Part shown: positions 10,605 to 29,936 of the stretch, piece by piece
Layout of the letters: each line of letters begins with the position of its first letter
Position numbering within the stretch: position 1 is the first letter of the stretch
Source of the DNA: Candidatus Saccharimonadota bacterium
GTDB taxonomy: Bacteria > Patescibacteriota > Saccharimonadia > Saccharimonadales > Saccharimonadaceae
NCBI GenBank assembly: GCA_017460625.1
Contig: JAFUAT010000012.1
Location: 1-54,909, forward strand
Reading direction: 5' to 3'
Length of the DNA stretch: 54,909 nt
Made by a program: the position numbers and the translations under genes
The notes under the pieces: generated by a model
Seen by the model: the letters and a program-made list of their open reading frames with translations, nothing else
Databases searched by the model: none
Told to the model about the DNA's origin: nothing

Positions 10605-10838
10605 CTCCTCACATTTTTTATCCGCATTTTGGCAAACTATTTATATTTTAGCATATTTCTATGGAAAAAGCAAGCTTGCTACTTTACACTGCTTTGCCAG
10701 CTTTTGGCCTAGAGTCCAGAGCGGGGTTTCGCCGGAGATCTGCGTGATTTTATATTGTTTTAATTTTAGTAAGTGTTTTTTGAAATTGTCAAGTTTTTAA
10801 TGTGGGACTAGGGTTTGCAAAACCAGAAAAAGCCATGG
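10605..10838. other. intergenic region between divergent orphan genes
   Basis: It contains the leader and extended -10 box (TGCTAAAAT on the minus strand, near 10646) of the 99-aa gene. The rest (about 10670-10838) shows no gene or clear repeat before the promoter of the pseudoknot RNA. Confidence 0.45.
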
Positions 10839-10844
10839 TATAAT
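10839..10844 (+). promoter_or_regulatory. -10 box for pseudoknot leader RNA, copy 1
   Basis: TATAAT preceded by TGG. Exactly 6 nt separate it from the first paired base of the RNA motif at 10851. The same spacing is found at copy 2, so in both loci the transcript would begin at the base of the first stem. Confidence 0.7.
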
Positions 10845-10850
10845 GAAAGT

Positions 10851-10966
10851 GCGAAACTGTAGTTTGTTTATTTATTTTGTCAAATTTGACTGATTAATGC
10901 GGCTATTTACGCAGGTTTGGTCAAATTTGGACAAACTATAGTTTCGCGACTAACGTAAATAGTCGC
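10851..10966 (+). ncRNA. pseudoknotted leader RNA motif, copy 1
   Basis: P1 pairs 10851-10867 (GCGAAACTGTAGTTTGT) with 10931-10947 (17 bp, one G-U). P2 pairs 10880-10891 with 10919-10930 (about 12 bp with wobbles), directly stacked on P1 on the 3' side and offset by a 12-nt bulge on the 5' side. The apical loop segment 10899-10911 (GCGGCTATTTACG) pairs with 10954-10966 (CGTAAATAGTCGC, 13 bp, one G-U), making a pseudoknot. An alternative hairpin GCGACTA/TAGTCGC (10946-10966) followed by ATTTTT looks like an intrinsic terminator and excludes the pseudoknot and the base of P1. This layout suggests an attenuator or riboswitch-like switch. The start codon of the 479-aa gene is 33 nt further on. 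Confidence 0.8.
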
Positions 10967-10998
10967 ATTTTTCGTTTAGGTGCGGCAGGAGGAGAAAA

Positions 10999-12438
10999 AT
11001 GAGTGGCGAAGATTTTAAGTTTAGCCAAGAGCAAGAAAATAGAGAACGGAGCCAAAATATCGGCGCGGAGGTTTTGATGCAGATGCCGGAATTTAGCGAG
11101 CGTATGCAATCGTTTAGCAAGGCTAAACAAAATGGAGAAGTGCCAGAGGAGGTGAGAGATGAGCAAGATTACAAGGAATATACACAAGAGAAAGAGGCTA
11201 GGCTAAATGAAGCGAGAACTCTGATATGGAACACTTACTGCGATGAGGGGATGCCCGATAATGCTGGGTATACTGAGGAAGTAAAAGATTTTCTAAGTTC
11301 CGAGAGTCTGAAGACTGTAGTGAATTCTGGATTTAACCTAGACGAGATGCTTAAAGATGGTATTCTTTCCAAGGCTGATGGAAGATATATAGGTAGCACT
11401 ATCCCTGGGCTAGCAAAACAATCGGCATTTAATGACGCAAAGGAAATTATTGGGGATTTGGCTGACTTTTGCGAGCTAACAGCTGATATGCCTAGTCCAG
11501 AGTATTTCGTCAATGAAATGCGAGGTATTTTTGATAATTGGCATAAAAACAGTCTAAAAGCAGCTCAATATGCGACGATAAATAACTGGATTACTCCTGG
11601 AACAGGTTTGCGGAACAGATTAATGTATGGTGAAGTAATCGATGAGAATGGGGTACTAACTATTAACACTGAACAAGTAAATCATACTCTTCATCTGATT
11701 GAAACCTTGCAAGGAATCCAAGATAGATACGACCCCAATTGCGATATATTATTAAGATTATACGTAGAGAAAATTAAAACTAAGCCAGAGGAAATTAGTC
11801 AGTATTTACACAACGATATAAAATCTGCCTTTGGTAAGGCGGCGCGTAAAAGGTTCGACGCCGTGTTGGACAGTATCTGTTATGATGGAGCCGCACGAGA
11901 CGTCGCAAAAAGCGTAATTACTGCGTACGATTTTGACCTGATAAAAAAGGCGAAGGAAGCGACGGATAGAACCAATGAATGGTTTGTTGAACCGCTTTTT
12001 ACGGACGAAGAGTTGCTATCGTCGATTTACGATATAGACCCTAGTGACAAGACAGAGAAGCTCTATGGACGAAAAGAAGCCGCCAATAGATTGCCGAGAG
12101 ATTTTGCAGCTTTGGAAGAAGCTGGTTTTTCTAGAGATTCACTGCTCAATATTATCCATGATAAAAATGTGCCTATACATATCAAGGAGGTAGTAAGTAT
12201 GCGAAGAGCGGGGATCAGTGATGTCGATATCGCTTATGCCAGCAAAGCATATGAGAGGTTTATAGTTGATGAGGACGAGGAAAGGGATTGGTTCAATCCT
12301 ATCAATAACGATTTCTTTGCCCGCGAGAAAGAAGGGTACGATCCGGCGTTTGGCTTGTCCGACACTGATATTTTGAATGCCGCCAACAAAAACTATTGGC
12401 GGAATGAAAGATTGGACAGAAATACTAGCGAAGAATAA
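10999..12438 (+). CDS. orphan soluble protein (479 aa) behind the pseudoknot RNA
   Basis: Function not recognised. No signal peptide or membrane segment is visible. The protein is acidic and probably all-helical. The N-terminal ~90 residues are highly charged (SQEQENRERSQ, RDEQDYKEYTQEKEARLNEA), followed by helical repeats with no catalytic motif I can identify. Other recognisable stretches are AQYATINNWITPGTGLRNRL, KAARKRFDAVLDSICYDGAARDVAK and SMRRAGISDVDIAYASKAYERF. The start follows AGGAGGAG at normal spacing. It is a single-gene unit with its own promoter, leader RNA and terminator. A homologous RNA precedes the methyltransferase operon at 24076, so a role in defence or mobile-element biology is possible, but this is inference only. 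Confidence 0.75.
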   Translation: MSGEDFKFSQEQENRERSQNIGAEVLMQMPEFSERMQSFSKAKQNGEVPEEVRDEQDYKEYTQEKEARLNEARTLIWNTYCDEGMPDNAGYTEEVKDFLSSESLKTVVNSGFNLDEMLKDGILSKADGRYIGSTIPGLAKQSAFNDAKEIIGDLADFCELTADMPSPEYFVNEMRGIFDNWHKNSLKAAQYATINNWITPGTGLRNRLMYGEVIDENGVLTINTEQVNHTLHLIETLQGIQDRYDPNCDILLRLYVEKIKTKPEEISQYLHNDIKSAFGKAARKRFDAVLDSICYDGAARDVAKSVITAYDFDLIKKAKEATDRTNEWFVEPLFTDEELLSSIYDIDPSDKTEKLYGRKEAANRLPRDFAALEEAGFSRDSLLNIIHDKNVPIHIKEVVSMRRAGISDVDIAYASKAYERFIVDEDEERDWFNPINNDFFAREKEGYDPAFGLSDTDILNAANKNYWRNERLDRNTSEE

Positions 12439-12647: not shown

Positions 12648-12953
12648 ATGGGCATGACGGCGACATTAACGAAAACGGGGCAAATCACAATCCCGAAGTG
12701 GGTGAGGGAATATTTGGATGTGAAGCCGGGACAAGTGATTGTTTTTCGAAAAGAGAAAGATGGGATGAAAATTATGAGAGAAAAAACCGCTGAGGAGACA
12801 GCAGAGGCAATTGATAAATTAATACCGCCTGAAGCACGGGAGCATCATATGAAATATTATGCTGGTTTGTCTGCCAGCGAAGCAAGAGAGAAGTGGGCCC
12901 GGAGTGAGGAAGGAAGAGCCTACTTCAAAGATCAAATGGAGCGATACCTATGA
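12648..12953 (+). CDS. AbrB/MazE-type antitoxin (second module)
   Basis: A 101-aa antitoxin with an N-terminal SpoVT-AbrB domain (TKTGQITIPKWVREYLDVKPGQVIVFRKEKDGMKIM) and a charged C-terminal tail (EAREHHMKYYAGLSASEAREKWARSEEGRAYF). AAGGA lies 6 nt before the ATG. Its TGA overlaps the toxin ATG by 4 bp, so the two are translationally coupled. It is related in domain order and tail to the antitoxin at 5048 but clearly divergent, so cross-talk between the modules is not certain. Confidence 0.88.
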   Translation: MGMTATLTKTGQITIPKWVREYLDVKPGQVIVFRKEKDGMKIMREKTAEETAEAIDKLIPPEAREHHMKYYAGLSASEAREKWARSEEGRAYFKDQMERYL

Positions 12954-13342
12954 CATCATCACTCGACACCAATATTTTGCTACGCTATATTTGGAAAGAT
13001 GTGCCAGGACAAAGAGAAAAGGCTGCCGAATTATTGAATACCCCTGACAAAATGTTTTATATTTCTGATTTGGTAGTATCAGAGCTTGTTTACAATTTAC
13101 AATTAGATGATCTTCGCAGAAGCAGTATCGTAGGAGTACTTTATGAGCTGTTTGCGAGAAAAAACGTAATTTCTAATCCATTTTTGACTGAGCTGGTACT
13201 GCCATTTTATGCGGAGCATCCGGCGCTATCTTTCGTGGATTGCTATACGGCGTTTGAGGCGGAGGAGAAGAACCGTGCACCACTTTGGACTTTTGACAAA
13301 AAGTTAGCGAATCAGCACAAGAGCGCGGAACTAGTCAGATAG
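12950..13342 (+). CDS. PIN-domain ribonuclease toxin (second module)
   Basis: A 130-aa PIN-domain protein. The first catalytic acid is in SLDTNILLRYIW, the second in VVSELVYNL, and the C-terminal acidic cluster in LSFVDCYTAFEAEEKNRAPLWTFDKKLANQ. All expected acidic positions appear present, so it should be an active RNase. It starts inside the antitoxin stop codon. The C-terminal motif (APLWTFDKKLANQHKSAELVR) closely parallels the toxin at 4660 (LPLYTFDKKFANQAETATLVK), which shows common descent of the two modules. Confidence 0.88.
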   Translation: MTSSLDTNILLRYIWKDVPGQREKAAELLNTPDKMFYISDLVVSELVYNLQLDDLRRSSIVGVLYELFARKNVISNPFLTELVLPFYAEHPALSFVDCYTAFEAEEKNRAPLWTFDKKLANQHKSAELVR

Positions 13343-20155: not shown

Positions 20156-20245
20156 GGAAGCGTGGCCGAGTGGTTGAAGGCGCACGACTCGAAATCGTGT
20201 GGGGTCGCAAGACTCTCGGGAGTTCGAATCTCCCCGCTTCCGCCA
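20156..20245 (+). tRNA. tRNA-Ser(CGA), hybrid gene restored by the integrated element
   Basis: A 90-nt class II tRNA: acceptor GGAAGCG/CGCTTCC, discriminator G, encoded CCA, anticodon stem CACGA/TCGTG with loop CTCGAAA (anticodon CGA), and a long variable arm. Its 3' half (GGGAGTTCGAATCTCCC T-arm) differs from that of tRNA-Ser(GGA) at 35798, whereas a displaced 3' half at 28431-28488 carries the same T-arm as tRNA-Ser(GGA). The inference is that the element's integrase recombined in the anticodon region (20188-20203) and the element supplied the present 3' half. Confidence 0.93.
20188..20203 (+). mobile_element. attL core (16 bp) inside tRNA-Ser(CGA)
   Basis: CTCGAAATCGTGTGGG, covering the anticodon loop and the 3' anticodon stem, is repeated exactly at 28431-28446. 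The two copies are 8,243 bp apart and bracket the integrase and cargo genes. Confidence 0.85.
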
Positions 20246-20278
20246 TGTTTATATCTGTTAAATAATGATTATATGTAA

Positions 20279-20310
20279 AAAGAAGAGGGTTTATTTCAAT
20301 CCTCTTCTTT
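20279..20310 (-). terminator. intrinsic terminator of the integrase gene
   Basis: AAAGAAGAGG/CCTCTTCTTT hairpin; on the minus strand it is followed by TTTTTAC. It can also stop rightward transcription coming from tRNA-Ser. Confidence 0.75.
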
Positions 20311-20312
20311 GC

Positions 20313-20335
20313 TTTTACATCAGTTTTTACATCAG
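20313..20335 (+). promoter_or_regulatory. tandem TTTTACATCAG sites near attL
   Basis: TTTTACATCAG (20313-20323) and TTTTTACATCAG (20324-20335), about one helical turn apart. The same tandem pair occurs at 28332-28354 near attR. Paired sites at both ends suggest arm-type binding sites of the integrase. Confidence 0.6.
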
Positions 20336-20341
20336 TTTGGC

Positions 20342-21409
20342 TTAAAAACTCATTTTTTCGGCGTATTTACACAATGCTGTTCTTTTGTCTTCGATGCTAC
20401 TATGTTGGTAATATAGCATTGTTGTAACCGGAGATGAATGCCCTAAAATTTCTTGCGCTTCTTTTACTGTAACCCCAGCATTTTTTAACGAGGTTGCTGC
20501 AAAATGCCTTAGGCTATGAAGTGTAACTTCTGGCAGATTGGCTTTCTTTTTAATTTGCTTAAACTCATAGTCTACACTAGCAGGATTAATGGGGCTACCA
20601 TTTACAGAAACCAAATAGCCTGTATCTCTGCCAACTGCTAATTGCCGGAGTAACTTTTCGATGTGTGGCAAAATAGGTAAATCTCTTACACTGCCGGCAG
20701 TTTTCAAATCACATATAGTGGGAACCCCATTAACTAGTGTATATTGTCGGCGAATATGGATTACCCTAGTCTCTAAGTCTACATCATCCCATTCTATAGC
20801 AATCGCTTCACCCCTACGGAGACCATAAGTCATACACATTAAGAAGATAGGGTAATATTTATTATCTTTAATCGCCTCTAAAAATCTTTTAGCCTCACTT
20901 TCGTCCCAGACTTTTCGTTCTTTCGGATGGTAGGTTTCTAGTTTGACGTATTTCGTTATATTTGGTTGAACAAGATTCTGAATTTCGGCGTCTTTTAGAG
21001 CCTTAGACAATATATTTTTTAAAATTTGAGTAGTCCTAGGAGATACCCCCTTTCTTATCAGAGAATCCATCATTTTTTGGATAGTCATAACGTTAAGCCT
21101 AGATAGTCGGACTTTGCCAATTTCAGGAATAATATGTTTGCGAATCTCTCCCTTATAACCAGACCTCGTTGATTCACGTATACCTCTTGCCATTTCTACC
21201 CAATTAGTTAAATATTGCTCTACGGTTATCATAGTATTATTTACTGGATGCCCATTAATAGCATTAGCAACTATCCTGTCTCGCTTTTCTTTTGCCTCTG
21301 TTGCAGAGTGCCCGTATGCAAATTCTCTTTTTCTGCTACCATCCCATAAAGTTATATAGTAAGGGACCTGAAATAGCCCATCTTTTCGCTCAGTCGCTTT
21401 AGAAACCAT
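20342..21409 (-). CDS. int: tyrosine recombinase/integrase
   Basis: Phage/ICE-type tyrosine integrase (355 aa). An N-terminal arm-binding domain (AYGHSATEAKEKRDRIV) is followed by a SAM-like core-binding domain (TVEQYLTNWVEMARGIRESTRSGYKGEIRKHIIPEIGKVRLSRL) and the catalytic domain. Catalytic residues visible: Arg in TYGLRRGEAIAIEW, His-x-x-Arg in LHSLRHFAATSL, His in LGHSSPVTTMLYYQHS and the nucleophilic Tyr in the same motif. The start at 21409 follows AAGGAGG at 5 nt; the in-frame start at 21433 has no such site. It overlaps the Xis-like gene by 11 bp and sits next to attL, the usual arrangement. Confidence 0.95.
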   Translation of the reverse strand: MVSKATERKDGLFQVPYYITLWDGSRKREFAYGHSATEAKEKRDRIVANAINGHPVNNTMITVEQYLTNWVEMARGIRESTRSGYKGEIRKHIIPEIGKVRLSRLNVMTIQKMMDSLIRKGVSPRTTQILKNILSKALKDAEIQNLVQPNITKYVKLETYHPKERKVWDESEAKRFLEAIKDNKYYPIFLMCMTYGLRRGEAIAIEWDDVDLETRVIHIRRQYTLVNGVPTICDLKTAGSVRDLPILPHIEKLLRQLAVGRDTGYLVSVNGSPINPASVDYEFKQIKKKANLPEVTLHSLRHFAATSLKNAGVTVKEAQEILGHSSPVTTMLYYQHSSIEDKRTALCKYAEKMSF

Positions 21410-21599
21410 TTGGACCTCCTTCATAATTATCAAGATTATTAATATAATCCATTACGTCCTTATTACTAAACATCGTGCGTTTGCCAACTTTTTTTGCAGG
21501 CAATGCCTTAGTATTCACTAGTCTATATAGAGTGGTGCGTCCAATTCCGCCCAGTGTGCTCATAACTTCTTCCATATTCAACAATCTTAAATCATCCAT
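21399..21599 (-). CDS. excisionase-like HTH protein
   Basis: A 66-aa protein with a MerR/excisionase-type helix-turn-helix (LLNMEEVMSTLGGIGRTTLYRLVNTKALPAKKVGKRTMFSNKDVMDYI), the family that includes Xis and AlpA-like directionality factors. AAGGAAG stands before the ATG. Its end overlaps the integrase start by 11 bp, so the two are probably co-translated, as in many elements where Xis and Int are balanced. It could also act as a transcriptional regulator of the AT-rich region upstream (21601-21835). Confidence 0.85.
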   Translation of the reverse strand: MDDLRLLNMEEVMSTLGGIGRTTLYRLVNTKALPAKKVGKRTMFSNKDVMDYINNLDNYEGGPNGF

Positions 21600-21600
21600 A

Positions 21601-21835
21601 TTATACTTCCTTTTTCATAATTCGTCAAATTTCTATCCCTGTTATTACTCATAATATTTAAATTGTTATTTTCTTTTTTAAATTTTATAATTCGCATAGA
21701 CCCATAGATTTACCTAATATTAGCAATCTATTCTATTACAAGAACCTATAGTTACTAATATTAGGTATCTAGGTATATAGTTTTAAACTATAATCTATAA
21801 TATATCTATATAGTATATAGGTTATTAATCTATGG
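21601..21835. promoter_or_regulatory. AT-rich control region with inverted repeats
   Basis: Very AT-rich. It contains the perfect inverted repeat ACCTAATATTAG (21712-21723) / CTAATATTAGGT (21755-21766) and several overlapping short TATA-type palindromes between 21775 and 21832. No gene fits. It probably holds the promoter of xis-int and operator or Xis sites; a replication start cannot be excluded. Confidence 0.5.
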
Positions 21836-22225
21836 CTAGAATGGGATGTCTGAAATATTAATCTCCATTCTTTCGGCTGTTTTTTCTGGCAATTGGCATT
21901 TATTTAAATCGACCTCGAACTCCCCACCATATTCATGTAGCCTGCCAGTGTTCTCGTAGTGTTTGTAAGCCGATACACAGGCTTTGTAAATGGCCTTTGC
22001 AAGAGGGTTTTCCTTAAAATCTGGGAATTCCACATACGGCTTGTATTTATCGTTTTTCCCCTTAAACGAAGGTGGAAACGCATACATATGGTCCACATCT
22101 CCGATTGTATTTGTTACGGTATAGGAGTTGATATGCATCAATCCCCCTATACTTACATTGGCGAATGCTTTTTTCGCCGTTTGCCCATCCATTACGTTGT
22201 AAATTTTGGCTTTGACTGTAGCCAT
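21836..22225 (-). CDS. SpoVG-like nucleic-acid-binding protein with SSB-type C-terminal tip
   Basis: Residues ~1-95 follow the SpoVG pattern: VKAKIYNVMDGQTAKKAFANVSIGGLMHI (beta strands), then YAFPPSFKGKNDKYKPYVEFPDF and LAKAIYKACVSAYKHY (C-terminal helix). SpoVG proteins bind DNA or RNA and act as regulators. The unusual part is the last residues, MEINISDIPF, which resemble the acidic DDIPF tip by which single-stranded-DNA-binding proteins recruit replication and repair enzymes. A linker of ~25 residues separates the two. AAGGAGG precedes the ATG. I infer an element-encoded nucleic-acid-binding protein that may recruit host SSB partners. Confidence 0.65.
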   Translation of the reverse strand: MATVKAKIYNVMDGQTAKKAFANVSIGGLMHINSYTVTNTIGDVDHMYAFPPSFKGKNDKYKPYVEFPDFKENPLAKAIYKACVSAYKHYENTGRLHEYGGEFEVDLNKCQLPEKTAERMEINISDIPF

Positions 22226-22367
22226 TTTTACCTCCTTATTTTTTAAAATTTATATTACCCTTATAGTAATTCAGTTTATAATGCGCTACTAGGGAAAAAT
22301 ATTTTCACTAAATGCGCCTCTGTTTTCTGAACAAAAAAATAACACACCATAAATACTAGGTGGGTAT

Positions 22368-23309
22368 TTAGTCCTTTTTATAGAGTTTCTTTATCCTATC
22401 GATTTCTGTGTCAGTATCTGATTCTGGGTAAAGCCACTTAACCATACCACTCACAGTTGTGTGTTCTGGGGACTCTTTGTCAACATACAGTGGTCGCCAA
22501 ATTAGAACTTCGTCATCCTTTGTTTCTGCAACGGTAAGTTGAGCCAAAATCGGCTTAAAAGCATTGTGAATAATCCTGCCATAAGATGCTCTGAATCCTG
22601 GTCTAATTGTTATAGTTATACAATCACCACAAACCCTATCAACTTTAATGGGAAAATCATCGTCTAGAATTCTCCGGAATGAAATATTACTCTGTTTTTT
22701 GTCTGGAGATGCAATTTTAGCAAGAACATATTCTCGCCACCCCCCACTGAGGCAGAACTTTTTTAAGATATAATCGGTACTATGATTAACTGCGCCTGTA
22801 TAGCGATAAATAAACTTTGTGTCCGATTCAGATAATGCCCCAGAATTCACCTTCTCTATTTTTTCTAGAATGTCTTTTTCGAAATCACCCTTAGACCCCC
22901 AAGTTAGCCATAACTGATATAATAAATCGTCACTAGCCTCTTCTATATCTTTATAGGTTTTTTGAGAGTGTTTTATCTTATCTAATTCCAAGCCCTCTCT
23001 TACTAGATAAAGTTCTTTTAAGAATTTCTTGTCTTTGTCCAAAAAACGTCTAAGGTTATCTAGTTCGGCTCCATACCCACCTTTCCTTTTGTCATTGTTT
23101 TCTAAGACTATCCTAATCTGTCTATCGCAAAATTTTGTAAGCGTTTTGTCTTTTTCCTCAGATGAAAACCCAAAAGTTTTCTCGCAAAAATCATAAAATT
23201 TCTCTTTGTCCGATAACTTCTCATCAGATATTTTTGGAATTTCTGAGCATTCTAACATAGCGCCCAATAACTCTTCACTGGGTATTTCTGGGATTTCTAA
23301 GTCTTCCAT
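22368..23309 (-). CDS. orphan element protein (313 aa)
   Basis: Not recognised. No signal peptide or membrane segment. The N-terminus is acidic and proline-containing (MEDLEIPEIPSEELLGAMLE), the middle highly charged and helical (KDKKFLKELYLVREGLELDKIKHSQKTYKDIEEA), and the C-terminal ~110 residues appear more beta-rich (RVCGDCITITIRPGFRASYGRIIHNAFKPILAQLTVAETKDDEVLIWRPLY), followed by an acidic end. It lies in the leftward half of the element between the SpoVG-like and terminase-like genes. A replication or regulatory role would be typical for this position, but nothing in the sequence proves it. Confidence 0.6.
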   Translation of the reverse strand: MEDLEIPEIPSEELLGAMLECSEIPKISDEKLSDKEKFYDFCEKTFGFSSEEKDKTLTKFCDRQIRIVLENNDKRKGGYGAELDNLRRFLDKDKKFLKELYLVREGLELDKIKHSQKTYKDIEEASDDLLYQLWLTWGSKGDFEKDILEKIEKVNSGALSESDTKFIYRYTGAVNHSTDYILKKFCLSGGWREYVLAKIASPDKKQSNISFRRILDDDFPIKVDRVCGDCITITIRPGFRASYGRIIHNAFKPILAQLTVAETKDDEVLIWRPLYVDKESPEHTTVSGMVKWLYPESDTDTEIDRIKKLYKKD

Positions 23310-23384
23310 CCCTATAATAATAAATCAGATCTTCTGATTATGCTAGCATTTGCTTTTTAACTAATTATCTCGCTCAAAACTCAC

Positions 23385-23741
23385 TCAAGATTCTTCATCT
23401 GGTCTTGGTCTGTTCGGCACAACATTAAACACAAAGTTTGCTCTTTGGAAAAATCCTTCTTCTTCGCCACTTTGCTCGTTCACATATGAGGATACCCAAG
23501 TTGCCGCCCTAACATCACCGTTTATGGCCTTTATTATCATTGAATATGCCAGTGCTGTCGCATAAGTCGCCGGCGAATTTTCCGGATACCCACGCATATG
23601 GTCGGAATTAATAATATCTGGATTGATTGGGTTCGCTAGCAGTTCACCCACTATGGTTGAAAAATTTTTTGAGCCTTTTTTACGCCCATTCTGCCTTCGT
23701 GGGTCGTCGGCTCCGGTAAATGGTTTCAGATTATTGTTCAT
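23385..23741 (-). CDS. terminase-small-subunit-like / DUF5681-type protein
   Basis: A 118-aa protein beginning KPFTGADDPRRQNGRKKGSKNFSTIVGELL, which matches the start shared by DUF5681-type and small-terminase-like phage proteins (NDPRR...GRPKGSKN). The rest is helical (ATYATALAYSMIIKAINGDVRAATWVSSYV). Small terminases recognise phage packaging sites; on an element without a large terminase such a protein may redirect a helper phage or have another DNA-binding role. AAGGA precedes the ATG by 8 nt. The similarity is strongest in the basic N-terminal motif only. Confidence 0.6.
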   Translation of the reverse strand: MNNNLKPFTGADDPRRQNGRKKGSKNFSTIVGELLANPINPDIINSDHMRGYPENSPATYATALAYSMIIKAINGDVRAATWVSSYVNEQSGEEEGFFQRANFVFNVVPNRPRPDEES

Positions 23742-23927
23742 TTTTATTATCCTTATTATTTACCAAAAGTATATCAAACAGCGTATTTTTGGCTTGGATT
23801 TAAAAAAATACACTAGGACCCCTGTTCAAAACACGCTCTGATTCACAAAATTTGGTGCTTCTGAGCCATTTTAGACTAGTCTGCGTATGTTTCTGAACTA
23901 TGAGTTGCGAGAGAGATAAAAATGAGA

Positions 23928-23933
23928 TATAAT
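23928..23933 (+). promoter_or_regulatory. -10 box for pseudoknot leader RNA, copy 2
   Basis: TATAAT, exactly 6 nt before the first paired base of the RNA (23940), as at copy 1. Confidence 0.7.
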
Positions 23934-23939
23934 TAAAAT

Positions 23940-24040
23940 GCTAAACTATAGTTCAATTATCTCTGTTTGAGGTAAGTATGCGGCCATTTACCGTGTTCTC
24001 AAACAGAGGACTATAGTTTAGCGACTAAGTAAATGGTCGC
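23940..24040 (+). ncRNA. pseudoknotted leader RNA motif, copy 2
   Basis: P1 pairs 23940-23952 (GCTAAACTATAGT) with 24010-24022, 13 perfect pairs. P2 pairs 23961-23971 (CTCTGTTTGAG) with 23998-24008, 11 perfect pairs. The loop segment 23980-23991 (GCGGCCATTTAC) pairs with 24029-24040 (GTAAATGGTCGC), 12 bp with one G-U at the same place as in copy 1. Against copy 1, base pairs change on both sides in P1 (G-C to T-A) and in the pseudoknot (T-A to C-G), and P2 has an entirely different sequence. The base of P1 plus the 3' strand can instead form GCGAC/GTCGC followed by TTCTTTATTT. The sequence GCTAAACTAT recurs at 24068-24077 over the start codon and could pair with the P1 3' strand. Confidence 0.82.
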
Positions 24041-24075
24041 TTCTTTATTTGGCGACCAGGAAAGGTTGCTAAACT

Positions 24076-25104
24076 ATGGCTATTAAATCGCTGGATTCTG
24101 CGAAGAAAAACAAAAATGATGAGTTCTACACTCGTTTTGACGACATAAGTGAGGAGATTCTAGGGCATAAAGACTATCAGGAACATTTTAAAGGGAAAGT
24201 CATATATTGCAACTGTGACGACCCTGCAGAAAGTGCGTTCGCTGATTTCTTCAAATTGAATTTTGAATACCTAGGGCTTAAGAAATTAATTTGCACCAGA
24301 TATGCGCACTCAAAACTATTATGGGACCTCTATGGTAAAGACCCAGTCAAGAGAGAAGGATATAAACTTGAAATAACCGGAAGAAATAACTGTAAAAAAA
24401 CGAATATAAATGGCAACGGAGATTTTAGGAGCAAAGAAAGCCTTGAGTTGCTAAAAGGAGCGGACATCGTTTGCACTAACCCGCCGTTTTCTTTGTTTCG
24501 TGAATACGTCACGCAATTAATTGAGCAGAAAAAGAAATTCCTTATCATTGGTCCAGTAAATGCTATAACCTATAAAGAATTTTTTCCTTTTATAGCGGAT
24601 AATAAAGTATGGGGCGGGTATGGACACCCTAAAAAGTTTATAATGCCAGATGGTGGAATTAAAAGCCTTGGCAATGTCCAATGGTGGACAAATCTACTGA
24701 TTAATAAAAGAACTGAAAGGATTGAACTAGTAGATAAATATACACCTGATAGATATCCAAAATTTGATAATTATGACGCCATAAACATAGACAATGTTAA
24801 ACATATACCTTGTGACTATTTTGAAACCATGGGTGTGCCAATTTCATTTTTGGATAAGTATAATCCAGAGCAATTTGAGATAGTCGGTATAACCAAAACA
24901 CCAATAGGTTCACATTTGAGAACAAAAATTTATAATAAACAAGAACAAATTAGTAAAGATGGAAAACATTCATATGTTACAAAACTAAACGATGGCCCGG
25001 CTCTATGCGTAGAAGAACCGCCGAAGAACAAAACATACTATCGTATAAAGGACAAGTTATACATATCGCCATACGCACGACTACTAATAAGGAGAAAAAA
25101 ATGA
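24076..25104 (+). CDS. EcoRI-type adenine-specific DNA methyltransferase
   Basis: A 342-aa member of the M.EcoRI family of N6-adenine methyltransferases. Signatures: IYCNCDDPAESAFADFF (SAM-binding region typical of this family), catalytic NPPF in DIVCTNPPFSLFREYV near residue 140, LIIGPVNAITYKEFFPFI, and NVQWWTNL. It would methylate adenine in a short site and protect element or host DNA. The ATG lies inside a repeat of the leader RNA's first strand and follows AGGAAAGG. It overlaps the DUF262-HNH gene by 4 bp (ATGA), so the two are translationally coupled, which supports a restriction-modification unit. The recognition sequence is not predictable. Confidence 0.9.
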   Translation: MAIKSLDSAKKNKNDEFYTRFDDISEEILGHKDYQEHFKGKVIYCNCDDPAESAFADFFKLNFEYLGLKKLICTRYAHSKLLWDLYGKDPVKREGYKLEITGRNNCKKTNINGNGDFRSKESLELLKGADIVCTNPPFSLFREYVTQLIEQKKKFLIIGPVNAITYKEFFPFIADNKVWGGYGHPKKFIMPDGGIKSLGNVQWWTNLLINKRTERIELVDKYTPDRYPKFDNYDAINIDNVKHIPCDYFETMGVPISFLDKYNPEQFEIVGITKTPIGSHLRTKIYNKQEQISKDGKHSYVTKLNDGPALCVEEPPKNKTYYRIKDKLYISPYARLLIRRKK

Positions 25105-26240
25105 ATAGTTCAGAGATGAAGACAAAGCGAATAACAGTAACCGTGCAACAGATTTATGATGGTTATGAGGACCACGATTGGGACGGCGTAGTTGGTTATG
25201 GTGGAAAGTTAGATATTAGACCTAAATATCAGAGAGAATTTATTTATGATTTAGAAAGACAGAGAAAAGTTATTGATACGATTCTAAATAAAAGGCCACT
25301 AAATATAATCTACTGGGTATCAACAAAAAATGGCAACTACGAACTGCTGGATGGACAACAACGCACTTTGTCTATATGTAAATTTCTAGACCATAGGTAT
25401 CATATTGAAGACAAGGATGGAAATAAATTTTATTTTGATACATTGCCAAAGGAGCAACAACAAAAGATTCTGAACTATGAACTAGAAATATGCGTTTGTG
25501 AAGGGGATGAAAATGAAATATTAGAATGGTTTAAGACTATTAATATAAGCGGGCTGGAACTAAAGCCACAAGAAAGACTAAATGCTGTATATAGTGGTCC
25601 TTGGACGGAAGACGCTAGAAAACTTTTTAGTAAAATCAATTGTGCTGCTGATACATTAGGCGGAGAGTATATGAGTGGGGAAATAACAAGGCAAGCATAT
25701 TTAGAAAAAGTATTAAAATGGATAAGTAATGGCGATATACAAGGATATATGGCAAAACACCGTTATGATGATAATGCTAACGAACTCTGGAAATATTTTG
25801 AATCGGTGATTTCTTGGGTAAAGGCAACATTCCCGACATACAGAGAACAGATGAAAGGTCTTGATTGGGGCAGATTTTATAATGACCATAAAAATGATGA
25901 ACTAGACCCAGTGGCTCTCGAAAAAACCATTTCTAGCCTAATGAGGGATGACGAGGACGAGATACAGAAGAAAGATGGAATTTATGAATATGTCCTTTAC
26001 GGAGATGAGAAAGCCCTAAACTTAAGGGCATTCAGCAAAAAAGATAAGAGCACCGCATATGAGCGACAAGGTGGAATTTGCCCTCTGTGTAAGGAGTCTG
26101 GAATAGAAAAACACTATGAAATTGACGAGATGCAAGCCGACCACATTATTCCTTGGAGCAAAGGGGGAAAAACTACATTAGAGAATTGCCAATTACTCTG
26201 CGCAAGACATAATCTAATAAAAAATAATCATATATTGTAA
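25101..26240 (+). CDS. DUF262-HNH nuclease (GmrSD-like)
   Basis: A 379-aa putative restriction or anti-phage nuclease. The N-terminal DUF262 (ParB/Srx-like NTPase fold) shows KYQREFIYDLERQRKVIDTILNKRPL and the key motif LLDGQQRTLS. The middle is helical. The C-terminus is an HNH nuclease: CPLC...EIDEMQADHIIPWSKGGKTTLENCQLLCARHN, with zinc-like Cys pairs (CPLC and the final C) and the catalytic DHIIPW. The start at 25101 follows AAGGAG and overlaps the methyltransferase stop; longer in-frame readings would lie inside that gene. GmrSD-type enzymes cleave modified phage DNA using NTP. Here the coupled methyltransferase suggests that cleavage depends on the methylation state, which is inference. 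Confidence 0.88.
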   Translation: MNSSEMKTKRITVTVQQIYDGYEDHDWDGVVGYGGKLDIRPKYQREFIYDLERQRKVIDTILNKRPLNIIYWVSTKNGNYELLDGQQRTLSICKFLDHRYHIEDKDGNKFYFDTLPKEQQQKILNYELEICVCEGDENEILEWFKTINISGLELKPQERLNAVYSGPWTEDARKLFSKINCAADTLGGEYMSGEITRQAYLEKVLKWISNGDIQGYMAKHRYDDNANELWKYFESVISWVKATFPTYREQMKGLDWGRFYNDHKNDELDPVALEKTISSLMRDDEDEIQKKDGIYEYVLYGDEKALNLRAFSKKDKSTAYERQGGICPLCKESGIEKHYEIDEMQADHIIPWSKGGKTTLENCQLLCARHNLIKNNHIL

Positions 26241-26265
26241 TATAATAGAGTAAAGGAGAATCTTT

Positions 26266-26460
26266 ATGGATGAATATCAGAAAAAACAAGACGAGTTCCT
26301 AGAAGTCATTAAGAAATACGACCCAGAGGAATATGATGACCTTATGAATTGTCCTAATGGAGGCATTGTTGAGGACCATTTAGACCACTTGATAAAAACA
26401 TATGGCACCGCCGAGGCTTATGAAAAGACATTTAAGGATGATAATGAGCCATCCGATTAA
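26266..26460 (+). CDS. small acidic protein (64 aa) of the methyltransferase operon
   Basis: Not recognised. Strongly acidic and helical (MDEYQKKQDEFLEVIKKYDPEEYDDLMNCPNGG...HLDHLIKTYGTAEAYEKTFKDDNEPSD). AAAGGAG lies 8 nt before the ATG. It follows the nuclease gene by 25 bp and overlaps the next small gene, so it probably belongs to the same transcript. Its acidity would suit a DNA-mimic inhibitor or a nuclease immunity protein, but this is speculation. Confidence 0.65.
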   Translation: MDEYQKKQDEFLEVIKKYDPEEYDDLMNCPNGGIVEDHLDHLIKTYGTAEAYEKTFKDDNEPSD

Positions 26461-26674
26461 TTTTGCTATGGGACAGCCAAAATGGTTGTCAAAAATAAAA
26501 GACGAGGATGTAAGGGCTACGATTTTTGCAATTATTTTCTCGGCTAATATAGACCAGAAAAATCCTACAGTTGATGAGTTGCGTAAGAAAATAAAAGATT
26601 TGAACCCAGATTGGGATAAAGAAAAAGTGGAAGATACTATTAGACTGCTAATAGAACATACCAACGACGATTAA
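26444..26674 (+). CDS. small protein (76 aa), last gene of the methyltransferase operon
   Basis: Not recognised. It reads MSHPINFAMGQPKWLSKIKDEDVRATIFAIIF, then a helical IDQKNPTVDELRKKIKDLNPDWDKEKVEDTIRLLIEHTNDD that could form a winged-helix-like module. The start at 26444 is chosen because AAGGA stands 5 nt before it; an ATG at 26438 is possible. It overlaps the acidic gene by 17 bp, implying coupled translation and joint function. Confidence 0.6.
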   Translation: MSHPINFAMGQPKWLSKIKDEDVRATIFAIIFSANIDQKNPTVDELRKKIKDLNPDWDKEKVEDTIRLLIEHTNDD

Positions 26675-26745
26675 GAAGAGATTTGTGATACTAAAACTGT
26701 TATTTTATCTAAGACAATGCTCTAGACAATACACAGCGCTAGTGA

Positions 26746-26751
26746 TATAAT
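26746..26751 (+). promoter_or_regulatory. -10 box of the DUF3800 transcript
   Basis: TATAAT ending about 9 nt before the structured leader at 26761, placing the transcript start at about 26758. Confidence 0.55.
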
Positions 26752-26760
26752 GTAGGTATT

Positions 26761-26810
26761 GGGCTGGTCGCAAGACCTGGGTCCACCAGAGGACGGGGCG
26801 AGCCCCCGTC
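26761..26810 (+). ncRNA. structured leader RNA upstream of the DUF3800 gene
   Basis: A compact GC-rich leader in an AT-rich region. Pairings: GGTC-GCAA-GACC (26766-26777, GNRA-type loop), GTCC/GGAC (26781-26784 with 26791-26794), and GGGCT/AGCCC (26761-26765 with 26801-26805). The last excludes a 7-bp terminal hairpin GACGGGG/CCCCGTC (26792-26810) followed by ATTTTG, which resembles a terminator. Conserved RNAs upstream of DUF3800 genes are a known set of motifs (the DUF3800 RNA motifs of Weinberg and colleagues, as I recall). I cannot say which subtype, if any, this is. Confidence 0.65.
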
Positions 26811-26826
26811 ATTTTGTTTAAAGGCT

Positions 26827-27507
26827 ATGAAAGAATTAAGCATATTTATTGATGAATCTGGAGATTTCGGAGATTACGACCCGAAAGCCCCTTTTTATAT
26901 TATTGGAATGGTATTGCACGACCAGAGAAAGAATATTAATGAGCCTATTCGTTATTTGGACAGTGGACTAAAACAGATTGGTTTTACTCGCAATTGTATA
27001 CATCTGGGGCCTCTAATTCGTAGAGAAAATGAATATGTCCATATGACAATTGAGGAACGAATAAAAGTTTTGCGTAGGATGATGAACTTTGTCTCTCGCG
27101 TAGATTTTATGTATAAATCTTTTGTTGTTGAAAAGAAACATCTGGAAAGCGAAGCCGAACTTGCTGCTAGACTTGCAAAACAGGTAGCGAATTTTATTAG
27201 ACAGCATTATCCATATTTCTTAGCATATGATAAGGTCAAGATTTATTATGATAACGGCCAAGTAGAAATTACAAAAATTATTATCTCTATTTTTACTACA
27301 TTATTTGACAATACTGAACTTAAAAAGGCTTATCAGAAAGACTACAAAATGTCCCAAGTAGCAGATTTGGTATGCACAGCCACTCTAACTGAGTTAAAGA
27401 TGGCTGATAAATCCCTTTCTCGGTCAGAACGACATATACTGGGCACCGATAGAGACATTAATAAAAATCTATTAAAACCTTTGAAACGAAAAGAATTTAG
27501 AGACTAA
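26827..27507 (+). CDS. DUF3800 family protein
   Basis: A 226-aa protein opening with the DUF3800 signature LSIFIDESGDFGDYDPKAPFYIIGMVLHD and later KVKIYYDNGQVEITKIIISIF and YKMSQVADLVCTATLTELK, which carry the conserved acidic residues of its proposed RNase H-like fold. The biochemical role is not established; these genes are frequent in phages, islands and defence regions and are often preceded by structured RNAs, as here. It has its own promoter and leader and is convergent with the HNH gene (2 bp gap). The weak ribosome site (AAAGG) sits just after the leader's last hairpin, which suggests regulation by the leader. Confidence 0.85.
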   Translation: MKELSIFIDESGDFGDYDPKAPFYIIGMVLHDQRKNINEPIRYLDSGLKQIGFTRNCIHLGPLIRRENEYVHMTIEERIKVLRRMMNFVSRVDFMYKSFVVEKKHLESEAELAARLAKQVANFIRQHYPYFLAYDKVKIYYDNGQVEITKIIISIFTTLFDNTELKKAYQKDYKMSQVADLVCTATLTELKMADKSLSRSERHILGTDRDINKNLLKPLKRKEFRD

Positions 27508-27509
27508 AC

Positions 27510-28271
27510 CTAGTTTTTGTTACAGTTTGTTTCTAGAATTTTCTCAAGAGTAGTTTTTTCATCAGTTGTTACGGAGAGGTCATATTTATCTTTTATATGT
27601 ATTTGAAAAGTAACATATTTACACCAAAACTTCTCGTTAGACGGTAGCCACTCGGAAGCATCTTTATCGCCTTTACTACGATTGGCTTTAGCAGAAGTAG
27701 CCATTAATACTTCCTCGTCATTGATATAAGTTTTCCATTTATCTGTATCCCAAGTATAACCACCAGATTCCCAAGCATTACCTTTTGCTACAATGTGGTC
27801 AACATCTATTCCACCACCACTAACTAGCCGATTATACTTAACTAGTGTTCCGGTGTAATAATCAAACATTGTGCCAGATTTAATTTTACAGTTAGATTCA
27901 TCGACTTTTTCATTTAGAATATCTCTTACTAAAACGTCGTATCTGGTAGAGCAGCCATCTCCATCGATATCAGACCAATCTGGCATCGTGCCGCTATTAT
28001 AATCTGGTATAGTTTCGGAACCACTACGGACGTTTAATTTTGAAAGTGTAGTTTTAGTGGTTTTTAAATCTTGGGTAGATATCGTATAAACTGGCTCGAA
28101 ATCTTGAATGTCTTGGTTTGTGAGGGCGCCTAAACCATAACCACCAGCACCTACTGCGATAACAGCACCTGCTATCCCTACGGTTCCGGCCACGATTTTT
28201 CCAGTTTTCTTGGATTGCTTTGGCTGCGATGTAGCAATGCCTGCATTAGTAGTCGTTTCGTTGTTGTCCAT
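27510..28271 (-). CDS. membrane-anchored or secreted HNH nuclease (DUF1524-like)
   Basis: A 253-aa protein with a cytoplasmic N-terminus (~27 residues), one hydrophobic segment (IVAGTVGIAGAVIAVGAGGYGLGAL) and an exported C-terminal nuclease domain. Nuclease signatures are DGCSTRYDVLVRD, GGGIDVDHIVAKGNAWESGGYTWDTDKW (catalytic DH) and LMATSAKANRSKGDKDASEWLP (N-x-x-K), typical of extracellular HNH/DUF1524 nucleases of Actinobacteria and Saccharibacteria. The position outside the membrane suggests DNA scavenging or attack on incoming or host DNA. It is the last gene before attR, so it is element cargo. Cysteine pairs (C-S-T-R, SNCK, FWCKY, TNCNKN) may form disulfides. Confidence 0.85.
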   Translation of the reverse strand: MDNNETTTNAGIATSQPKQSKKTGKIVAGTVGIAGAVIAVGAGGYGLGALTNQDIQDFEPVYTISTQDLKTTKTTLSKLNVRSGSETIPDYNSGTMPDWSDIDGDGCSTRYDVLVRDILNEKVDESNCKIKSGTMFDYYTGTLVKYNRLVSGGGIDVDHIVAKGNAWESGGYTWDTDKWKTYINDEEVLMATSAKANRSKGDKDASEWLPSNEKFWCKYVTFQIHIKDKYDLSVTTDEKTTLEKILETNCNKN

Positions 28272-28331
28272 TTGGTTTTATTTTATCATAACAAAGATGG
28301 ATAAGGAAATAAACCAGAATCATTTCGCAGA

Positions 28332-28354
28332 TTTTACATCAATTTTTACATCAG
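28332..28354 (+). promoter_or_regulatory. tandem TTTTACATCA sites near attR
   Basis: TTTTACATCAA (28332-28342) and TTTTTACATCAG (28343-28354), the counterpart of the pair at 20313-20335 by attL. Candidate integrase arm sites. Confidence 0.6.
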
Positions 28355-28430
28355 TATCATAGTATTCATCAGTGCACTTTATTGTTCGTTGAAGTCTGTT
28401 AAAAATACGTGTCCGAAGGGGAAAATATGC

Positions 28431-28488
28431 CTCGAAATCGTGTGGGCGGGTGACCGTCTCGGAGGTTCGAATCCTCTCGCTTCCGCCA
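28431..28488 (+). pseudogene. displaced 3' half of the original tRNA-Ser(CGA), attR
   Basis: It begins with the 16-bp core repeat (28431-28446), continues through a variable arm and T-arm (GGAGGTTCGAATCCTC) and ends CGCTTCCGCCA. The T-arm and acceptor are the same as in tRNA-Ser(GGA) at 35798, so this is most likely the native chromosomal 3' half cut off by integration. It has no 5' half and cannot make a tRNA. Confidence 0.85.
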
Positions 28489-28548
28489 TGTCCTAGCGGA
28501 CATGCACAAAAAAATAGGATATCGTCCTTCGCTTCGCTCAGGTCGAAT

Positions 28549-28641
28549 TCTCTCGCTTCCGCCAATCAGAATGAATAGCCGAAATAAGGCTATTTTTCTC
28601 TGTTCTGAGCTTGTTCGAACCTAAACTTTGCAAGAGTTCTC
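28549..28641 (+). repeat. repeat shared with the tRNA-Ser(GGA) locus (inverted copy at about 35640-35735)
   Basis: It starts with a partial tRNA-Ser 3' end (CTCTCGCTTCCGCCA), followed by a terminator-like AATAGCC/GGCTATT hairpin with T5 and then TTCTGAGCTTGTTCGAACC and GCAAGAG. The same order occurs on the opposite strand downstream of tRNA-Ser(GGA). The two tRNA-Ser loci are thus inverted duplicates extending at least 100 bp past the tRNA 3' end. Confidence 0.75.
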
Positions 28642-28796: not shown

Positions 28797-29936
28797 ATGA
28801 AACGATATAATCAGGGAGAATTCATAAGAGAACAGGCCAATACTGATTTTGAGTATAAATATTTTATGCCGAGCTTGTTGCCAGAAGTGTTTGAATTCGA
28901 TGACCCGAATATAAGTGTCTTGTTAGAGGATGCAACGCAAAAATTGGGGGAACTAAATGCTTATTCCCTTCTGACTCCAGACATAGATTTTTTCATTAAA
29001 ATGCATGAAGTGAAGGAGGCCACGGAATCGAGCCGAATAGAGGGGACAAGAACAAATGTTGACGAAGCCGTTATGGACGAGGAGGATGTCGAGCCAGAAA
29101 AACGTGATGATTGGCGAGAAGTTCAAAATTATGTTAAGGCTTTGAATTTTGCTATTGACAGGATGCAGACATTGCCATTAGCTACTCGGCTAATTAAAGA
29201 AACGCATGCTGTACTTCTTTCTGGAGTTCGCGGTGAAAATAAAACACCTGGCGAGATACGGAAATCGCAGAACTGGATTGGTGGAGAGACCATTAGAGAC
29301 GCGCGCTTTGTCCCGCCACTATACACTGAAATCGATAAATATTTATCTGATTTAGACCATTATTTGAATGATAAGGCCCTAAGCACTCCGATCTTGATAA
29401 AGACGGCTATTGCGCACTATCAATTTGAGACTGTTCATCCTTTCTTAGATGGTAACGGCAGAATGGGGCGCCTTCTAATAGTACTTTATTTAATTAACAA
29501 GAAAAAACTTTCTCGACCAGTATTATATTTGTCAGACTACTTTTCTAAACATAGGCAAGGCTATTATTCTGCGCTGGATGCCGTCCGATATGATGGCGAT
29601 CTAGAACACTGGGTTAAGTTCTTCTTGGTTGCGGTTGCCGATACTGCAAAAGTGTCCTGCGAGACCTTACAGAAGATCATTGAATTAAGAGAAAGAACCA
29701 GTGCTAAAATAATCAGCAACGGCAAAATGGTACAGAATTCTACAAAAATAATAAACGCTATGTATAGCCGACCAGTGTTGTCGATAAATGAAATGGCTAG
29801 TATGATGGGGGTGTCATATCAAGCTGCGAATAAAATCGTAAAGGAGCTAGTAGCACTCGGCATTTTAGGAGAAATTGCTGGAGTGCAGAGAAGCAAAAAC
29901 TATGCTTTTAAGGAATATCTAGAGCTATTTATGTAA
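28797..29936 (+). CDS. Fic-domain AMPylase-type protein with inhibitory motif
   Basis: A 379-aa Fic protein of the common N-terminally inhibited class. The inhibitory helix motif (S/T)xxxE(G/N) is present as SSRIEGT near residue 80. The catalytic motif HPFxxGNGRxGR is intact (HPFLDGNGRMGR) near residue 220, preceded by the IAHYQFETV lead-in. The C-terminus is a winged helix (SRPVLSINEMASMMGVSYQAANKIVKELVALGIL). Fic enzymes usually transfer AMP to target hydroxyls; the target is unknown. It stands alone just outside the integrated element, has a leaderless promoter, and is followed by remains of a second, unrelated Fic gene. Confidence 0.92.
   Translation: MKRYNQGEFIREQANTDFEYKYFMPSLLPEVFEFDDPNISVLLEDATQKLGELNAYSLLTPDIDFFIKMHEVKEATESSRIEGTRTNVDEAVMDEEDVEPEKRDDWREVQNYVKALNFAIDRMQTLPLATRLIKETHAVLLSGVRGENKTPGEIRKSQNWIGGETIRDARFVPPLYTEIDKYLSDLDHYLNDKALSTPILIKTAIAHYQFETVHPFLDGNGRMGRLLIVLYLINKKKLSRPVLYLSDYFSKHRQGYYSALDAVRYDGDLEHWVKFFLVAVADTAKVSCETLQKIIELRERTSAKIISNGKMVQNSTKIINAMYSRPVLSINEMASMMGVSYQAANKIVKELVALGILGEIAGVQRSKNYAFKEYLELFM

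Follow-up and report, generated by a model that had tools for sequence, protein, structure and literature searches.

The stretch of DNA analysed here, which we call the window, is 54,909 nt of a Candidatus Saccharimonadota bacterium (contig JAFUAT010000012.1), and it carries the same predicted RNA structure twice, directly ahead of two genes. The question is what such an RNA does between a promoter and a gene. An earlier note, made from the sequence alone, had described a pseudoknot leader RNA, and both copies are indeed present at 10851-10966 and 23940-24040 with their parts in the described order (Table 1). A -10 box stands 6 nt before the basal helix P1 in each (TATAAT at 10839-10844 and 23928-23933), the start codon follows 33 nt (copy 1, 10999) or 36 nt (copy 2, 24076) after the motif, and in both the loop at the apex, GCGGC-Y-ATTTAC, has its complement in the 3' flank GTAAAT-R-GTCGC. 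The upper helix P2 has a wholly different sequence in each copy but keeps its pairing, a two-sided change is found in P1 and another in the pseudoknot, and the shared G-U pair is retained. The hairpins of copies 1 and 2 fold 7.9 and 7.5 standard deviations below dinucleotide shuffles, and none of 200 shuffles equals them. What does not hold is the stacking of P2 straight on P1: the parts P1, bulge and P2 stand, but a stack of about 29 bp is incompatible with the pseudoknot when the linker has only 4-7 nt. This geometry needs a hinge or sharp bend at the bulge (4-26 nt long across all copies), opening of P1, or pairing between two molecules.

Table 1. Parts of the two leader copies and the genes behind them; coordinates are those of the window, all on the + strand.
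Copy	Feature	Position	Remarks
1	Extended -10 promoter element TGGTATAAT	10836-10844	Promoter-like site, TG before the -10
1	P1 5' strand	10851-10868	Predicted transcript 5' end
1	5' bulge	10869-10880	U-rich; possible hinge
1	P2 5' strand	10881-10893	
1	Apical loop strand of pseudoknot AATGCGGCTATTTACG	10896-10911	Conserved 12-mer at 10899-10910
1	Pseudoknot loop sequence GCGGCTATTTAC		
1	P2 3' strand	10917-10929	
1	P1 3' strand	10930-10947	
1	Predicted terminator hairpin GCGACTA-loop-TAGTCGC	10946-10966	Excludes pseudoknot, overlaps P1 base; from independent scan
1	Pseudoknot 3' strand CGTAAATAGTCGCATT	10954-10969	
1	U-run ATTTTT	10967-10972	
1	GGTGCGGC	10979-10986	Directly before Shine-Dalgarno; second possible partner of GTCGCATT
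1	Shine-Dalgarno AGGAGGAG	10987-10994	
1	Gene 1, 479-aa protein	10999-12438	No Pfam match; N-terminus common to other putatively leader-controlled genes
2	-10 box TATAAT	23928-23933	
2	P1 5' strand	23940-23953	
2	5' bulge	23954-23960	
2	P2 5' strand	23961-23972	
2	Apical loop strand of pseudoknot GCGGCCATTTAC	23980-23991	
2	P2 3' strand	23997-24008	
2	P1 3' strand	24009-24022	
2	Terminator-like hairpin AGCGACTA-loop-TGGTCGCT	24020-24041	Imperfect U tract TCTTTATTT
2	Pseudoknot 3' strand GTAAATGGTCGC	24029-24040	
2	RBS region GGCGACC-AGGAAAGG-TTGCTAAACTAT	24051-24077	GCTAAACTAT repeats own P1 5' strand, could pair with P1 3' strand
2	Gene 2, EcoRI-type adenine methyltransferase	24076-25104	PF13651
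2	Restriction enzyme gene	25005-26240	GmrSD_N + HNH; type II REase by PADLOC; overlaps methyltransferase gene

To place the motif we searched with covariance models, as had been proposed, and these found further copies in Saccharibacteria genomes. Sixty-four distinct copies of this first sequence family (family A) were gathered, all of them from Saccharibacteria. Positive genomes numbered 35 of 174 for the genus, with one to four copies apiece, 22 of 295 for the family, 23 of 393 for the class and 2 of 333 for the phylum, counts that are lower bounds given the strict filters of the genome searches; every positive genome belongs to one family (f1). Among 11.3 million genome contigs the exact loop-and-flank pattern matched 29 times, always in contigs labelled as Saccharibacteria and mostly from ruminant gut, and 2.9 million viral contigs yielded zero matches. 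A phage origin was rejected, as the three viral matches to a relaxed pattern were stemless, had no model score and are attributed to chance. No Rfam 15 family scored above its gathering threshold, no T-box model of that release matched, the two window copies had no match up to E = 5, and we found no description of a leader RNA in Saccharibacteria in the open-access papers searched. As far as Rfam 15 and those papers go, the leader RNA is undescribed. An extended -10 element (TGnTATAAT) has conserved TG and TATAAT columns at fixed spacing in 62 copies, and every copy has P1 starting at the predicted 5' end of the transcript. Four divergent copies (L050, L053, L054 and L063) have an extra small hairpin in the 5' bulge, which produces a three-way junction.

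The two-sided covariation first seen between two copies is strong by pair count in an alignment of 44. Standard pairs fill 99.4% of pair cells in these distinct copies, compared with 35-41% after the partner strand is shifted by 1-3 columns. Both sides have changed at 9 of 12 pairs in P1, 8 of 8 in P2 and 5 of 12 in the pseudoknot, with no shuffle as high, although the 90-column alignment had been cut to uniform length around helices selected for their pairing, so that the P1 and P2 counts favour the structure, and the aligned copies share descent. The pseudoknot columns were picked by complementarity to the flank, yet at one fixed place in the loop, and 0 of 500 shuffles matched their five two-sided positions; one of these positions is U-A, G-C or A-U in the alignment and C-G in copy L051. 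Loop and flank are otherwise nearly invariant in family A. Loop and flank occur in 26 distinct combinations, of which 20 pair along their full length; when partners are exchanged, this holds for 17.5%, a difference which points to pairing within one RNA. The placement of the leader RNA on the strand of the gene was also borne out: the stems hold G-U pairs and A-C mismatches in a ratio of 153 to 1, an asymmetry which indicates that selection acts on the sense RNA. The ratio is 77 to 4 in the pseudoknot, and the sense strand folds at -46.9 kcal/mol compared with -36.4 kcal/mol for the antisense strand. Together the additional copies and the covariation support the interpretation as a leader RNA, and the lack of an Rfam match its novelty.

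What this RNA may do is indicated by a second structure in the same segment. The 3' end of P1 and the linker (GCGACTA) pair with the end of the flank (TAGTCGC; GCGACUA..URGUCGC as RNA), followed by ATTTTT, at about -8 to -9 kcal/mol, and a terminator scan independently selected this hairpin in both window copies. The 3' strand of the pseudoknot doubles as the 3' arm of the terminator, an overlap that the earlier note missed, as it did the part played by the transcript 5' end and the families of unrelated sequence described below, and over the last part of the pseudoknot the two structures are therefore mutually exclusive. As in an attenuator, a G+C-rich hairpin and a U-run lie between promoter and gene, and a competing upstream pairing excludes the hairpin, the pseudoknot strand spanning the whole 3' arm in 17 of 17 leaders. 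Within family A the terminator stem pairs in 96.8% of cells without covariation, and because it hardly varies, family A alone gives no proof. Its sole informative copies, L044 and L062, keep the pseudoknot and have a broken terminator stem, L062 also being without the U-run; a poor U-run or broken stem with retained pseudoknot is found in L044, L062 and L067. Further downstream, past the U-run but ahead of the Shine-Dalgarno sequence, 43 of 57 copies have a segment able to pair with GUCGCAUU, whereas a reversed query gives 5; this partner, UGCGGC, is transcribed later and so has no role in the termination decision. A leader peptide initiated at the AUG of the loop was rejected, since the frames differ and L062, L066 and L067 have no start codon there.

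The same overlap recurs in leaders of unrelated sequence. Apart from two already known, the other EcoRI-type methyltransferase genes of the genus have no model match, and most of them are preceded by leaders of the same layout in different letters, which form two further sequence families: one with loop AATCGGGCGCTGTAG, flank CTACAGCGTCCGATT and hairpin GGACGCT..AGCGTCC, the other with loop CAGGGCATCTCG, flank CGAGGTGTCCTG and hairpin GACACC..GGTGTC. A sequence-blind scan, which uses the pairing scheme only and permits without demanding the overlap of 5' end and terminator, recovered these methyltransferase leaders. On both strands of the window it found exactly the two copies, with zero hits in four shuffled windows, and across two genomes (1.44 Mb) it gave 12 hits, one of them a copy on a segment from a third genome, compared with 2 weak hits in shuffles. 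Each of the 12 has a properly spaced -10 box, though this was absent from the scan criteria. A second scan, starting from the -10 box, added one leader in the genome of the window and one in genome G035; the total for the former is then seven, and in five of these the core has no relation to that of family A. Nothing rose above the null level in the scanned parts of G405 (0.52 Mb; another family of the order) and G204 (0.22 Mb; same genus, without family A).

Leaders with the cores GCGAC, GGACGCT, GACACC, GGAACACCC, GCACC, GAGCATCG, GACAGCC and GAACACTC all keep the terminator stem, the U-rich tail and the pseudoknot. The pseudoknot measures 12-20 bp across 17 leaders and contains at least one G-U pair in every one of them (35 in total, against 10 in the terminators), as expected if strand exchange has to stay possible. 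In 16 of the 17, the 5'-terminal bases of the transcript, which close P1, also pair with the 5' arm of the terminator. These bases largely repeat the end of the terminator 3' arm (UGUC/UGUC, UGCUC/UGCUC, UGUUC/UGUUC, GUGC/GUGC), so two locks, the transcript 5' end and the loop, would appear to hold both arms of one terminator. The family A leader belongs to a larger class that is recognised by its architecture.

Judging by sequence, we consider it probable that the motif acts as a transcription attenuator close to its promoter. Directly visible in the sequence are the two competing helices, which overlap in full, as well as a conserved promoter and covariation in P1, P2 and the pseudoknot. In the model that we propose, transcription would begin at the base of P1, and the P1-bulge-P2 hairpin would form and expose the apical loop. 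The emerging 3' flank could then pair with this loop to give the pseudoknot of 12-20 bp. As long as this pseudoknot persists and the 5' end of the transcript keeps the base of P1 closed, both terminator arms would be occupied, and polymerase would read through into the gene. Were the pseudoknot absent or displaced, the flank would fold back onto the last bases of the P1 3' strand; a terminator would then form before the U-run, and transcription would halt about 120 nt from its start. We infer a regulatory role for the leader and, with it, actual termination, the pseudoknot as the ON direction and the existence of a signal. Against an attenuator speak the straight P1-P2 rod of 29 bp, which exceeds the 4-7-nt linker, the copies named above with a poor U-run or broken stem, and the downstream partner that has no part in a termination decision. 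The lengths of P1 and P2 are correlated, but negatively, which disfavours a simple fold-back, and the correlation was discarded as support for one.

Several features of the leader would also suit a 5' stabiliser of the messenger or an aid to translation, in which the 5' stem and pseudoknot shield the RNA from 5'-end-dependent ribonucleases and the terminator-like hairpin is a by-product. P1 is at the predicted transcript 5' end in all copies, the hairpins are very stable, and some copies without a U-run still keep P1, P2 and the pseudoknot. Such a role leaves unexplained, however, why a terminator stem and U-rich tail lie under the pseudoknot strand in families unrelated in sequence, and why G-U pairs are systematic in the pseudoknot, and we regard it as rather unlikely. 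We give a somewhat similar, low credence to a landing site at which a protein or small RNA acting in trans would recognise the pseudoknot and control accessory genes as a regulon. The near-invariant loop and flank of family A, the unrelated genes that carry the leader and, in a manner resembling messenger mimicry, the ribosome-binding regions of the five family A methyltransferase leaders, which repeat the leader's own P1 strand, would all fit this proposal. Yet a single sequence-specific factor cannot serve the unrelated cores that occur in the same genome, and the patchy occurrence of copies, in 35 of 174 genus genomes, is that expected of self-contained cassettes.

In the transcriptional type of fluoride (crcB) riboswitch, an intrinsic terminator is overlapped at its base by one strand of a cotranscriptional pseudoknot; the outcome is decided by strand displacement, and a wobble pair is important for the switch (PMC11077080). 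The leaders described here share with it a pseudoknot strand that overlaps the terminator, and this likeness, together with the conserved loop within family A, could argue for a metabolite riboswitch whose aptamer is pseudoknotted and whose expression platform is a terminator. The fluoride riboswitch, however, has a conserved aptamer that binds fluoride, whereas in the present leaders no set of unpaired nucleotides is conserved across families as a ligand pocket, and for this reason we do not call the leader a riboswitch. P1 and P2 are also much longer than in the fluoride RNA, and the transcript 5' end joins the competition. No Rfam riboswitch matches, the downstream genes have no common pathway, and we regard a metabolite riboswitch as improbable. 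That the motif is a folded DNA element, such as a recombination or attachment site for which the RNA is irrelevant, is very hard to believe: copy 2 lies within an integrative island and the copies are patchy, but the G-U/A-C asymmetry in stems and pseudoknot rules against it, the sense strand folds better than the antisense, and promoter and start codon are at fixed places.

With the attenuator as our preferred reading, the leaders can be set beside other known systems. The put-type processive antiterminator RNA of HK022, which binds RNA polymerase and suppresses distant terminators, has the promoter-proximal position in common with the present leader. The trp-type attenuators likewise have four competing segments, whose helices exclude one another above a terminator, but the leaders described here have no conserved leader peptide and their antiterminating helix is a pseudoknot. 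The preQ1 riboswitches and ribosomal-protein leaders also have a pseudoknot in the 5' UTR before the gene; the present leader matches neither their sequences nor their models, and the genes controlled are unrelated. In the EcoRI restriction-modification system, a separate antisense RNA from a reverse promoter exerts control (PMC3874152), which again is control at the RNA level of an EcoRI-type methyltransferase, whereas our candidate is a cis-acting leader on the sense strand.

Given this proposed role, we evaluated the genes that lie behind the leaders. They are diverse and exchangeable and encode methyltransferases (EcoRI type, N6_N4 and MmeI type), GIY-YIG nucleases, T4SS pilins and Fib_succ_major surface proteins, as well as many proteins without a Pfam match that have the N-terminus PSFEEH ... 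PEGVRDxxDYxEY in common. Leaders of other sequence precede the same gene types, with a PSFEEH protein (L204), a Fib_succ_major-type protein (L168), membrane proteins and methyltransferases among them. The PSFEEH/PEGVRDxxDYxEY proteins have diverse C-termini and comprise the product of gene 1 and homologues at L006, L011, L015, L016, L020, L025-L029, L035 and L204; their genes often follow these leaders, and they are possibly delivered proteins. A MazE/PrlF-like antitoxin and a PIN-domain toxin are encoded directly 3' of gene 1 (12648-13342).

The methyltransferase leaders have a further feature at the start codon. In 5 of 5 of those in family A (L002, L061, L062, L056 and L003/L043) the region of the ribosome-binding site repeats the leader's own P1 strand (GCTAAACTATG, GCGAAACTATG, GCAAAACTATG, GCTAAAATG). 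This repeat, at 24047-24077 in the window, follows the variable third base of the P1 5' strand, which is T in L002, G in L062 and A in L003, and it could pair with the P1 3' strand. In most methyltransferase leaders of the second family, a hairpin at the start site repeats the arms of the leader helix (CAACAGAG). At L119, L120, L125, L126, L130-L133 and L135, the EcoRI-type methyltransferase starts behind a perfect hairpin whose arms repeat leader strands and whose loop holds a purine-rich, Shine-Dalgarno-like stretch, for example CUCUGUUG-UAGGAAAG-CAACAGAG-AUG. These repeats suggest a second, translational output for the leaders. Since the methyltransferase versions combine a weaker terminator with a ribosome-binding region that repeats a leader strand, control there is probably translational.

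An integrative island of about 8.2 kb (20156-28491) carries copy 2 and the restriction-modification genes behind it as cargo. It has an intact tRNA-Ser(cga) at 20156-20245 and, at 28431-28491, a copy of the 3' half of this tRNA; another tRNA fragment lies at 28543-28564. The island encodes a phage-type integrase (20342-21433, - strand), and a tblastn search with this integrase found none near other leader copies. It also carries a DUF3800-XI RNA (RF02975; 26760-26807) directly 5' of a DUF3800 gene (26827-27507), a distinct 48-nt motif to which the present motif has no match. Genes for a GmrSD C-terminal domain (27510-28271, - strand) and a Fic/DOC protein (28797-29936, + strand) are located at or beyond the distal end of the island.

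These data also allow us to put forward, tentatively and as a possibility that we would not yet favour, a wider hypothesis: that the leaders make up a class of regulatory RNA defined by its pairing scheme, in which the 5' bases and the apical-loop pseudoknot would each lock one arm of the terminator. Termination would then read the state of the 5' end, meaning start-site choice or 5' integrity, and private, orthogonal sets of pairings may travel with exchangeable Saccharibacteria genes. If the lock at the 5' end is true, it would be a compact and portable switch that could be built in vitro. For RNA discovery the leaders carry a warning. Their pairing scheme is conserved and their core sequence is not, so Rfam, covariance models and sequence searches each see one sequence family; it was a search by architecture that revealed the others.

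To our knowledge, little is known about gene regulation in the ultrasmall, epibiotic Saccharibacteria. Synthetic riboswitches have been proposed for them solely as future tools (PMC11665869). The predicted targets of the leaders, which include surface proteins, type IV secretion pilins, the uncharacterised proteins with a shared N-terminus and restriction-modification systems, likely matter for life with the host cell. That one design recurs with wholly different sequences within a genome suggests a novel form of on/off control over exchangeable genes in these ultrasmall bacteria.
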